Below are positions 45,641-62,294 of a stretch of DNA of 64,000 bases, in pieces. The stretch's first letter is position 1. Every line of letters starts with the position of its first letter. The notes beneath the pieces are model-generated. The model searched no databases. It had not been told where the DNA came from and saw nothing but the letters and a program-made list of their open reading frames with translations. Source of the DNA: Bacteroidota bacterium (GTDB lineage: Bacteria; Bacteroidota; Bacteroidia; 2-12-FULL-35-15); contig CANJYB010000005.1 of NCBI GenBank assembly GCA_947479085.1, positions 62,001 to 126,000 on the forward strand, read 5' to 3'. The translations under genes and the position numbers were made by a program.

Positions 45641-45771
45641 GTTGTTTAAGTTTTAGGTTGTTTTTAATTTCCGGCTCTCCGGCTTGTTATTTATTATTGT
45701 TTACACTTTTATTATATATAGTAACTTACTGATAATCTCTCTTGTTTTTCAAAAATCACCTTCGGTAACCA
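45641..45771. other. Gap before array D
   Basis: AT-rich sequence, presumably with the promoter of the hypothetical gene. No coding feature. Confidence 0.4.
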
Positions 45772-46063
45772 ATATGCAATGTTGCGAACCGAATATTGCA
45801 TCTTGCGAACCCAAGATGGAATATTGCGTTCCGACAATCCATCTGGAGTTATCAATATCTCATCTTGCGTTCCGGATATTGAATATTGCGTTCTCTATAT
45901 TCAATCTTCAGCACCGATTATTGAATATTGCGTTTTCAACATTCCATCTTCAGCACTCAACATTTAATATCGAAACACCATATTGCATCTTCAGTTTCCA
46001 ATATCTCATCTTGAGAACGCAATATTGCATTTTGCGAACACAATATTACATCTTGAGTACCGA
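45772..46063. repeat. Tandem array D, degenerate 21-bp units (14 units)
   Basis: Fourteen units start at 45772, 45793, 45814, 45834, 45855, 45876, 45897, 45918, 45939, 45960, 45980, 46001, 46022 and 46043. Eleven of the thirteen spacings are 21 bp and two are 20 bp. Units read roughly ATATTGCATCTTGCGTTCC with much variation; the best kept part is A-T-(C/A)-T-T followed by GCG or CAG. The two 1-bp deletions would shift any reading frame, which argues against a coding role. Confidence 0.88.
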
Positions 46064-58864: not shown

Positions 58865-60553
58865 TTAAAAATCATAATATAAATTTGCCAATGATGTTCG
58901 TATCCCAAAATATACAAGCTGTGTATTATTTGTTACGTTTCCGATTTTTTCGGTTCTGTTTGTAATTCCAAGTACAATATTAAAGTTTGTGTTTGGATTT
59001 ACCAAATAACCAATGTGAATATCTTCAATTAATAAATTTGTTTTTACTCCCTGCGCGACAGTATTACTAATCATACTTTGGGTAACAGGAAAAGTGTCAT
59101 CCGATTTAAAAATATTTCCGCCATAATTAAAAGTGGAGCTGTCAGAACCTTTTGCTGCATAAATTCCTTTTATTTCAATAAAAAAATCTTTAAGGCGGTA
59201 ATTAATAAAACCGATTGCTTCATTAAAATTTGCTCCTAACGGGTGTGCCAAGGATTGATTAAAATGAGAATAACTTTGTTCGGGATTGGATGACGCATAA
59301 GAATATGGACTAACACTATTATACTCCAACTGTAAATGAAGATTCTTAATGGTAAACAAATCAAAATATTTTAAACCTACCTGGTAACCATTTTTGTTTT
59401 TCCCCACCTTTTTAGAATTGGAATACATATCATCAAACATATACTGACCATAAAGAGAAATAGACTTTGTAAGTTTTAATTTCAATGTTAATCCCATCAA
59501 TATATTATTGGTATTATGCATTCCGTAATTCAATGCGTTTACACCTATAACAGGGTCAAAGGTATTAAAGTTGGTATGCTGTCGGTTATTAGAATCAGCA
59601 GCTTCCCATATCATTCCCTGAAAAAAACCAACCTGCAAACGCTTAAACAAGTTAACACTCAGCATCTGAAAACTTCCGATTTTTTTCTGGAATAAGCGTT
59701 CTGTATGCGCTGGTGTTTTTACTCCTCCATCGGTAAGGTTCATAAAGGAAGTATAGAGATTGGTATATTGAATGTTTTTATAAGTAGTGGTTATTCTTGC
59801 AAAAGGATAATTAAAAGCATTGTCAGATAATAATAAAGAACGATAACCATCCCCCACAAAATGTTTTCCGTTACCCACCTGTAGGTTCAACATCTTAAAA
59901 GGAGTGTATGAAATATATCCTGAGGCCATGGCATAATCATACCCGTTTCTTCTAAAAGGTTTGGAACGACCCTGTCCGGGAATTACTGCATAATTATAAT
60001 TTGCAGTTTGCGGAAATACAGTGTTAGTGGATGCAATATAGCTATCCATGTATTTTGGAAAGGTAGACTGGTTTTCATAAAAAGAAGATTCGATGACCAG
60101 TTTTTTACCAATTCCAGCCCGCAACAAAAAACCTCTTGTATTGGTAAAAAGCCGTTCGCCTGTTTTGTCAGCAAAATCTCTTCCTAATTCAACACTAAGA
60201 ATGGGGTCAAGGTTCAGATGAAATTTTTCAGCGGTATCCTTCACTATTATCAGGCTTTCTTTTTTTAATTTCCGATACAGAAAACCTCTTGTTTTATTTT
60301 TTACTGAAAATGATGGAGCAACTATATAAGGTTTGAAAGGGGAGGAGTAAACCGGAATAGGTTCCACGAGCATACATGCATGGCATTTTGCTAGTATACT
60401 ATCTTCTTTTGCTTTAGCCGCTTCAATTTTCGCTTTGTTTATTTCTCTGAAAGGCAAACCCCTTTCTCTGTTCAATGGCAGGTTCTGCTGAGCAACAATC
60501 AGGGTTGGGAAGAGTAGAAATAAGAGTAAGAGTTTTTTCAACACAGAGTTCAC
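58865..60553 (-). CDS. Outer-membrane Wzi/RemB-like beta-barrel protein (paralogue)
   Basis: This 562-residue protein has a signal peptide (1-21) and a barrel like its neighbour at 56149-57765, with MLNLQVGNGKHFVGDGYRSLLLSDN, QLEYNSVSPYSYASSNPEQSY and NQSLAHPLGANFNEAIGF. An N-terminal segment (CHACMLVEPIPVYSSPFKP) is specific to this copy. It opens the operon with the WecA-like gene. Upstream is the GxxExxY cassette, whose repeats begin right at its start codon region. Confidence 0.8.
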   Translation of the reverse strand: MNSVLKKLLLLFLLFPTLIVAQQNLPLNRERGLPFREINKAKIEAAKAKEDSILAKCHACMLVEPIPVYSSPFKPYIVAPSFSVKNKTRGFLYRKLKKESLIIVKDTAEKFHLNLDPILSVELGRDFADKTGERLFTNTRGFLLRAGIGKKLVIESSFYENQSTFPKYMDSYIASTNTVFPQTANYNYAVIPGQGRSKPFRRNGYDYAMASGYISYTPFKMLNLQVGNGKHFVGDGYRSLLLSDNAFNYPFARITTTYKNIQYTNLYTSFMNLTDGGVKTPAHTERLFQKKIGSFQMLSVNLFKRLQVGFFQGMIWEAADSNNRQHTNFNTFDPVIGVNALNYGMHNTNNILMGLTLKLKLTKSISLYGQYMFDDMYSNSKKVGKNKNGYQVGLKYFDLFTIKNLHLQLEYNSVSPYSYASSNPEQSYSHFNQSLAHPLGANFNEAIGFINYRLKDFFIEIKGIYAAKGSDSSTFNYGGNIFKSDDTFPVTQSMISNTVAQGVKTNLLIEDIHIGYLVNPNTNFNIVLGITNRTEKIGNVTNNTQLVYFGIRTSLANLYYDF

Positions 60554-60580
60554 GGGGTTTTCAGAGTTTCACAGAGAATT
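60539..60580. repeat. Inverted repeat, left end of GxxExxY cassette
   Basis: This 42-bp sequence pairs with the reverse complement of 60955-60996 at 29 of 42 positions, including two exact blocks: CAACACAGAG and GAGTTTCACAGAGAA. The CACAGAG-type repeat ends 12 bp into the barrel-gene start region. Confidence 0.75.
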
Positions 60581-60973
60581 AAGATTACCATTTATTTTTC
60601 TTTTTATCCCTTGTTTCAAAAGTGGAACATTAAAATTGATTAACAAACCTAATTTTTTGTCTGCCAGTTTCAAATAAGTAACCAATTGGGCTTCGTGTAT
60701 GGGAAGCAAAACTTCAACCGCTTTTAATTCTAATATTACTTTATCTTCTATTAATAAATCAATAATAAATTCTTTGTTCAATACACTTCCCTGAAATGTA
60801 ACGGGTAACAATACCTGACTTTCAACATTAATTCCGATTCTTTCCAAGACATCAATTACACAAATTTCGTAAACAGATTCTAATAAACCAGGTCCTAATT
60901 CACTATGAACTTCAATACAAGCAGAAATAATTTTCTCTGTGAGCAAATTGTAATCTTTCTCTGTGAAACTCAT
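60569..60973 (-). CDS. GxxExxY family protein
   Basis: This 134-residue protein has the name-giving GPGLLESVYE motif, then NKEFIIDLLIEDKVILELKAV (a D-x-ELK pattern resembling a PD-(D/E)XK nuclease core) and EAQLVTYLKLADKKLGLLINFNVPLLKQGIKRK. The function is not established; nuclease-like activity has been suggested from the fold. The gene lies between imperfect 42-bp inverted repeats, and its first codons (MSFTEK) are part of the right repeat. It splits the polysaccharide gene block, so it looks like an inserted cassette. Confidence 0.9.
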   Translation of the reverse strand: MSFTEKDYNLLTEKIISACIEVHSELGPGLLESVYEICVIDVLERIGINVESQVLLPVTFQGSVLNKEFIIDLLIEDKVILELKAVEVLLPIHEAQLVTYLKLADKKLGLLINFNVPLLKQGIKRKINGNLNSL

Positions 60974-60996
60974 TTCTTTCTGTGCTCTCTGTGTTG
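60955..60996. repeat. Inverted repeat, right end of GxxExxY cassette (encodes the start codon)
   Basis: Partner of 60539-60580. On the minus strand it contains ATGAGTTTCACAGAGAAA, the GxxExxY start. It is also the first copy in the 105-bp tandem array. Confidence 0.75.
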
Positions 60997-61209
60997 AAAA
61001 TTTTTCGCTATTCTATCCAAACTCATTTTTCCCTATTTCTCTGTCTCGAAATATTTTCAGTTTCTCTGTGAAACTCATTTCTCTTTGTGCTCTCTGTGTT
61101 GGAAATTTTCCGCTATTCTATCCAAACTCATTTTTCCCTATTTCTCTGTCTCGAAATATTTTCAGTTTCTCTGTGAAACTCATTTCTCTCTGTGCTCTCT
61201 GTGTTGAAA
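60956..61209. repeat. Tandem array of 105-bp units next to the GxxExxY gene
   Basis: Units begin with TTTCTCTGTGAAACTC at 60956, 61061 and 61166, exactly 105 bp (5 x 21) apart; the third is cut to about 44 bp. Each contains CTCTGTG-type blocks and TTTCTCTGTCTCGAAATATT. The first unit holds the GxxExxY start codon, so the array repeats the gene's 5' end. Confidence 0.9.
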
Positions 61210-61217
61210 AATCCCTT

Positions 61218-62147
61218 CTATTTAAGCGTATCTTTCACTCCATTATAAACCCTCTCAATTCCTTCTTCCAGGTTTATCTTATGTTTCCATCCAAACGAAT
61301 GAAGTTTACTAACATCCATTAATTTCCTCGGAGTGCCATCAGGTTTGGTAGTATCAAATTTTAATTCGCCTTCATAACCCACTATCTTTTTAACAAGCAA
61401 GGCAAGATCTTTAATAGTAATGTCTTCGCCCACTCCTATGTTTACCAATCCTGGTTCATTGTAGTTTTGCATCAGGTAAAAACAGGCATCTGCCAAATCA
61501 TCTGCATGCAAAAATTCACGCATGGGAGCACCGGTTCCCCATATTTCTACTGAAGGAGAATTTGTTTTTTTAGCGGTATGAAATTTACTTATTAAAGCTG
61601 GCAATACATGCGAATTTTTTAAATCATAATTATCGTTCTGCCCATATAAGTTAGTTGGCATAACCGATATAAAATTGCAGCCATACTGACTTCTATAAGC
61701 ATCACACATTTTTATACCTGCTATTTTTGCAATGGCATAAGGTTCGTTGGTTTCTTCCAGCAGGCCGGTAAGCAGATAATCTTCTTTCAATGGCTGAGGT
61801 GCCAGTTTAGGGTAGATGCAGGACGAACCAAGAAACATTAATTTCTTTACTCCGTTCACATAAGCCTGGTGTATAACGTTCGATTGAATCATGATGTTTT
61901 CATAAATAAAATCGGCACGGTAGGTATTATTGGCAACAATACCGCCTACTTTGGCTGCTGCCAGAAATACGTATTCGGGTTTTTCATTTGCAAAAAAATC
62001 AGCAACTGCTTGCTGATTTCTTAAATCTACTTCTTTGCTGGTATGAGTTAACTGGTTGGTGAACCCTTCCTTTATCAGCTTTCGCTGAATGGCAGAACCC
62101 ACCATTCCGCGATGGCCTGCAATGTATATTTTACTTGATTCGTTCAT
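61218..62147 (-). CDS. fcl: GDP-L-fucose synthase
   Basis: This 309-residue SDR enzyme has the NADPH motif [25 protein letters not shown], the active-site [14 protein letters not shown] (Tyr-x-x-x-Lys) and [21 protein letters not shown]. It epimerises and reduces GDP-4-keto-6-deoxymannose to GDP-L-fucose, using the product of the upstream gmd. It lies 147 bp downstream of gmd on the same strand. Confidence 0.96.
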
Positions 62148-62162
62148 TGTTTAAATAATTTC

Positions 62163-62229
62163 GAATGATGAACATCGAATTTCGAATTTCGAAGTGTGTT
62201 GGTTAACCCATATTCAATGTTCATTATTC
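62163..62229. repeat. Inverted repeat between gmd and fcl
   Basis: GAATGATGAACATCGAATT (62163-62181) and TATTCAATGTTCATTATTC (62211-62229) are imperfect inverted partners (15 of 19), with TTCGAA-rich sequence between. It sits inside an operon-like gap. A decayed or empty small cassette is possible. Confidence 0.5.
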
Positions 62230-62294
62230 TTTTTTTCTAATCGTTTCGGCTGATTCGAAATTCAGTATTCGGTATTCCTTTTCAAAAAACTTAC

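Follow-up and report, generated by a model that had tools for sequence, protein, structure and literature searches.

A GxxExxY gene, predicted to encode a PD-(D/E)XK nuclease, lies between inverted arrays of a 7-bp word in a REPtron-like arrangement

The closest described systems join a small enzyme gene to the repeats around it. In REPtrons, the enzyme is a tyrosine transposase of the HUH Y1 class (RAYT) and the repeats are GTAG-tagged palindromes (PMC3733652, PMC2817692); TIRtrons, or TIRYTs, are described in the text of PMC3733652 as RAYT genes with long terminal inverted repeats and the motif GGGGWSAS. Here, we describe a unit found in a 64,000-nucleotide stretch (the window) of a Bacteroidota genome (G000; 4.28 Mb, 50 contigs, five GxxExxY genes). 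Our best reading is that this little-described unit, which behaves like a mobile or selfish one, represents a repeat-plus-enzyme arrangement of the REPtron kind, built on a different class of enzyme. In the open full-text literature, the name GxxExxY occurred in passing mentions only, and we found nothing relevant on a link between GxxExxY genes and repeats or on the repeat sequence; subscription papers and preprints lay outside this search, and a prior description is possible.

The GxxExxY (PDDEXK_3) gene of the window (60569–60973, minus strand, 134 aa), identified by profiles and predicted fold, occupies a junction in a capsule (sugar-coat) operon, not an rRNA gene. Its neighbors, defined by open reading frames and profiles, are an upstream NAD-dependent epimerase gene resembling fucose synthase (61218–62147) and a downstream gene for Wzi-like capsule assembly (58865–60553), both likewise on the minus strand, and the first-pass annotation was right that the gene divides a polysaccharide block. 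An inverted-repeat search located a 3′ arm of CACAGAG words (gene orientation) at 60533–60578 and a gene-proximal 5′ arm at 60956–61001, both on the minus strand; the arms read TTTTCAACACAGAG..CAC....GAGTTTCACAGAGAA on one side of the gene and the complement on the other. A tandem-repeat search added an array on the same strand (60956–61210; period 105, 2.4 copies, 96% identity) that contains three arms (60956–61001, 61061–61106, and 61166–61211). The inverted repeats with two exact blocks that had been noted around the gene were recovered as a 51-nt pair of 76% identity (60528–60578 and 61167–61217) with blocks of 15 nt (100%) and 19 nt (89%), and the left arm also pairs with both inner copies of the right arm in the array. 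Its alignment with the gene-proximal right arm scored 35, whereas the highest score among 1000 shuffles was 23. The start codon (ATG at 60973) lies within the right arm, as first noted; the stop codon (TGA, 60571–60569), which had been missed, lies within the left arm, and this arm overlaps the beginning of the wzi-like gene, whose initiation codon is probably the TTG at 60541–60539, inside the arm. A second, gene-less palindrome made of TTCGAA words occupies the next operon junction (62163–62277, no strand assigned).

The first-pass annotation had counted three 105-bp units and had raised a possible link, through 105 = 5 × 21, to other arrays in the window. The 105-bp array of the 5′ arm is real, but it has 2.4 copies, the third being the ∼45-nt arm alone, and each unit consists of two diverged halves of ∼52 nt (identity 0.48 at lag 52–53). 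Autocorrelation at lag 21 gave an identity of 0.34, approximately background, so the tie to the 21-bp arrays is ruled out. The 5′ arm seems to have been duplicated in tandem after insertion, probably by slippage, and arms elsewhere in the genome likewise. The 21/42-bp tandem arrays themselves (45767–46057) contain words like ATTGAATATTGCG and approach in style the arms of S23 genes (PF05635, see below); no S23 gene was found beside them.

The gene product matched PF13366 (E 9e-40; 136.1 bits against a cut-off of 22 bits), alone among Pfam families and with no match to the HUH Y1 transposase, and TIGR04256 (E 8e-41; 139.1 bits against a cut-off of 35 bits). The top match of its predicted structure (pLDDT 95) was the Cas4 protein SSO0001 (Foldseek E 2.5e-4, Z 9.0), followed in the Foldseek ranking by lambda exonuclease. 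Holliday-junction resolvases (Hjc) scored lower than Cas4 in the structural comparison (Z 6.7), and sharing a fold with Hjc or with any of the others shows no function; no solved homologue was found by sequence. D72, E82, K84, and Q96 are invariant across 78 sequences and Y100 is conserved in at least 90% of them, which sets out the residues D72, E82-x-K84, and Q96-xxx-Y100. The QxxxY motif marks the RecB/Cas4-like clade of PD-(D/E)XK nucleases, and by motifs and fold the GxxExxY protein is predicted to belong to it. The only cysteines of the window protein are C19 and C38, two rather than the four of the Cas4 Fe-S cluster.

Repeats of the CACAGAG type flank other GxxExxY genes as well, far more widely than the first-pass annotation had guessed. 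Of 93 GxxExxY genes sampled in the genus and the class, 80% had inverted flanks scoring at least 36; as controls, reversed flanks gave 0%, dummy sites 0/40, and mismatched genomes 3%. In a set of 77 cross-phylum loci, all from one GxxExxY subfamily, which spans Bacteroidota, Cyanobacteria, Planctomycetota, Verrucomicrobiota, Acidobacteriota, Chloroflexota, Proteobacteria, Spirochaetota, and others, the proportions were 53% at scores of at least 36 and 68% at scores of at least 30 (controls, 0/52 and 1%). Each ∼40-bp arm consists of about three to four direct copies of one 7-bp word, usually laid out as ACC-word-2-word-6-word-2-word, and in most arms the word fits C[AG]C[N][AG]A[GT] (C-R-C-N-R-A-K), with CGAAT and nATGAT as variants. 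The word is uniform inside an element and different among elements, its four free positions agreeing at 85% within an arm, 86% between arms, and 54% between elements. Between arms, words are 94% identical and spacers 55% (chance, 31%), a contrast that is partly biased by the word definition itself. Because the spacers match poorly, arm pairing is not the feature that is kept, which suggests that selection may act on a bound word rather than on hairpin pairing.

Gene and arms are coinherited. Word class tracks the protein tree (23 changes compared with a shuffled mean of 54; 0/200 shuffles), the seven CGAAT units all fall together on a single supported branch of that tree, and across genomes arm similarity increases with protein identity. 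Word class does not track the genome of origin (18 changes on the protein tree versus 66). A few near-identical proteins have unlike word classes (e.g., L155 with CACAAAG and L167 with CGCAAAG), so the specificity of protein for word is not strict. The position of the start codon is less constant: the ATG lies inside the arm in the window copy and in a decayed copy at the same junction of a congener (G010); in most copies the arm stops a few to ∼40 bases before the ATG.

Arms also occur away from any GxxExxY gene. The inner 15-mer had 20 matches in the source genome at up to one mismatch and its reversed control had none. Elsewhere in the genome, the copies take the form of complete palindromes in which a few bases replace the gene, of lone arms, or of tandem clusters, and some lie at contig ends. 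In this one genome, the arm-end sequence TTTCAACACAGAG is present in 32 copies, compared with 0–13 in 35 congeners. Over 148 Bacteroidota genomes, the pattern of CAC-word arms gave 448 matches versus 35 when reversed. Counted per genome, and including the arms at GxxExxY genes themselves, this amounts to 5.5 matches in genomes with GxxExxY and 0.6 in genomes without (control, 0.2), or about nine times more; in the source genome, 12 of the 14 matches are away from GxxExxY genes, and gene-less palindromes are more numerous than gene-bearing ones. Arm number thus depends on the gene at the level of the genome: in a rank regression, only the GxxExxY count explained it (t 6.75), and neither S23 (0.85) nor Y1_Tnp (0.62) did so independently. 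In genome G139, 25 arm matches cluster on a few contigs in the absence of both a GxxExxY gene and a match to Y1_Tnp, and the source genome carries CACTAAG palindromes without a cognate gene; the repeats can therefore persist or spread without GxxExxY. We rejected RAYTs as owners of the repeats, since word pairs were found at 0/20 sampled RAYT loci and the regression also spoke against them; the RAYTs of the same genomes carry G+C-rich hairpins of the GTAG type and none of the words, and they supply both a contrast to the GxxExxY unit and a model for it. Two RAYT (Y1_Tnp) genes of the source genome (L333 and L334; G000:C18:21276–21620 and G000:C39:3215–3559) have inverted repeats of their own and form a separate system. 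Contigs C4, C5, and C11 of this genome (L008, L031) have tandem arrays of these arms at their ends, with a period of ∼71 bp in C4 and C11, which indicates that the arm repeats probably broke the assembly.

The units sit tightly in operon junctions, at a median of 8 nt from the upstream stop codon and 17 nt from the downstream ATG, and 109 loci are sense with respect to their neighbors versus 7 antisense. This co-orientation with both neighbors suggests dependence on transcription of the host operon, and expression would probably occur by read-through. The terminal repeat had been proposed to serve as the promoter; a search of the gene's strand from the upstream gene to the ATG found no Bacteroidota -7 motif (TANNTTTG), and together with the sense bias this speaks against the proposal. 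No Rfam family matched the window arms, and a known RNA family was rejected as their identity.

The empty-site comparison that had been suggested as a check was carried out between species, at the fcl–wzi junction of 14 congeners having both neighbors. Clean junctions in which the two genes abut were found in G005 and G015 (TAG|TTGAAAAAACTT and TAAG|TTGAAAAACC). The G010 junction holds, between arms of the same kind, a GxxExxY gene that is broken and whose remaining product shares 78% identity with the window protein; G016 has a gene-less CACAGAG palindrome; and G001, G006, G008, G011, G012, and G014 (L106–L118) have differing families of short repeats. Because other species hold unrelated repeats there, the junction looks like an insertion hot spot. 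In a tree of the two neighbors, the source genome groups with G005, G004, and G015, and G010 with G009. Either of two histories would account for this, an old unit lost several times or related units that entered twice; the TTG start shared at the arm end by G000, G010, G005, and G015 favors, as we infer, an old unit with losses. A decayed relative at the same junction of another species, with closer relatives lacking the unit, likewise suggests that the unit entered between wzi and the fucose-synthase-like gene long ago and has since been lost several times, and the window copy looks old rather than recent. No target-site duplication was seen against the empty sites in G005 and G015, and outgroup junctions were diverged. 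The five GxxExxY genes of the source genome include no fresh copies; all are diverged and have different words.

The units have nevertheless been displaced. Several pairs of proteins with 76–87% identity have unrelated flanks, among them L045 and L052, at 87% identity and from different families, and the homologous block shared by L044 and L047 stops at the outer edges of the arms. These observations indicate that gene and arms change place together, by some route. On the other hand, seven relatives from several Bacteroidales families (L224, L226, L227, L229, L230, L231, and L236, one of them checked by Pfam) have GxxExxY at the junction of two methylmalonyl-CoA mutase genes, apparently an old shared insertion, so that units can stay stable for long, unlike an active transposon. 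What the first-pass annotation called a mobile cassette thus stands as regards gene and arms behaving as a mobile entity and the existence of empty junctions, and falls as regards recent insertion, given the decayed G010 copy. Phage origin was rejected, since neither viral contigs nor phage records yielded a relative; plasmids accounted for only 8 records.

In the explanation we favor, to which we give about an even chance, the GxxExxY nuclease would recognize the 7-bp word array of its own inverted arms and cut there, and cutting would help to spread or maintain the unit together with the gene-less elements derived from it. The arrangement would parallel that of RAYTs and REP repeats, with an enzyme of another class. 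That recognition, cutting, and mobilization are all the work of the nuclease is what we infer from the coinheritance, displacement, and genome-level dependence described above. We put forward only tentatively, as a possibility short of probable, the broader proposal that these are a new class of bacterial transposable unit distributed over many phyla. On this view, a nuclease of the Cas4/RecB type would read the 7-bp word, specific to its clade, in the inverted arms around its gene and would spread the gene-less palindromes, and enzyme specificity and repeat word would diversify together. Another enzyme could instead move the word palindromes, the nuclease gene being cargo captured between two arms. 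The excess of gene-less over gene-bearing palindromes and the many arms of G139 fit such capture, and unrelated S23 genes likewise lie between inverted word repeats, with other types of word (53% at scores of at least 36, n = 30; 24 sense versus 0 antisense), as at the gmd–fcl junction of the sister genome G005 (contig C59, L104), where the words resemble those of the TTCGAA palindrome that the window has at this junction. We consider capture unlikely, however, because the arm words follow the protein tree and not the genome, because arm number goes with GxxExxY genes whereas RAYT and S23 genes show no independent correlation with it, and because word pairs were missing at the sampled RAYTs of these genomes, whose repeats are of the GTAG type.

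The strong sense bias inside operons, the arms near both start and stop codons, and the long-lived position between the methylmalonyl-CoA mutase genes would also suit a host or domesticated gene, whose arms, as hairpins or operators, would insulate a repair or defense nuclease and control it through expression or RNA processing, comparable to rRNA intervening sequences. This seems to us rather unlikely: the poor match of spacers relative to words, even with the bias noted, the dispersal of gene-less copies, the presence of units at unrelated sites, and the lack of an Rfam match at the window locus all run against it. The 105-bp array does look like a local tandem duplication, and slippage at the 5′ end of the gene combined with a chance inverted resemblance might have produced the locus by accident; since most relatives have these arms on both sides of the gene and the 15-mer recurs in the genome where its reversed control does not, the data already contradict this reading, and we hold it to be very improbable.

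GxxExxY proteins are annotated in large numbers without a function, and the link between words and arms gives the family a testable role. The units also offer a source for common dispersed repeats of environmental genomes, which seemingly break assemblies, and suggest a natural series of nuclease–word pairs in which to study how DNA recognition diversifies.

Among known systems, miniature inverted-repeat elements (MITEs) and their autonomous parents show the same relation of a short gene-less element sharing its ends with a gene-bearing relative, but the GxxExxY unit has no DDE transposase and no recognized target-site duplication. S23, the protein of 23S rRNA intervening sequences, is similarly encoded by a small gene found sense in operon junctions between inverted word repeats, yet it is an unrelated four-helix bundle with different words, and the window unit neither lies in an rRNA gene nor encodes S23. 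The Cas4/RecB/lambda-exonuclease clade shares the predicted fold and the D, ExK, and QxxxY residues, whereas the GxxExxY protein is shorter, lacks the four-cysteine Fe-S cluster of Cas4, and has another genomic setting. TIRtrons, as described in the text of PMC3733652, are alike in the long, diverse inverted repeats around a gene and their ability to form repeat families, and differ in pairing a tyrosine transposase with GGGGWSAS rather than a GxxExxY nuclease with CRCNRAK words. The likeness to the RAYT–REP system is closest, in a small single-gene enzyme, inverted palindromic flanks, and many gene-less copies, single, paired, or clustered (PMC3733652, PMC2817692), and the organization of the window unit, a gene inside inverted repeats of which the genome also contains gene-less copies, is REPtron-like. 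The unit itself contains neither an HUH Y1 gene nor GTAG palindromes, and the RAYTs of the genome lie elsewhere and carry other repeats; in their place are a PD-(D/E)XK nuclease and untagged arms that read TTTCAACACAGAG..., arrays of a 7-bp word that varies with the protein clade.
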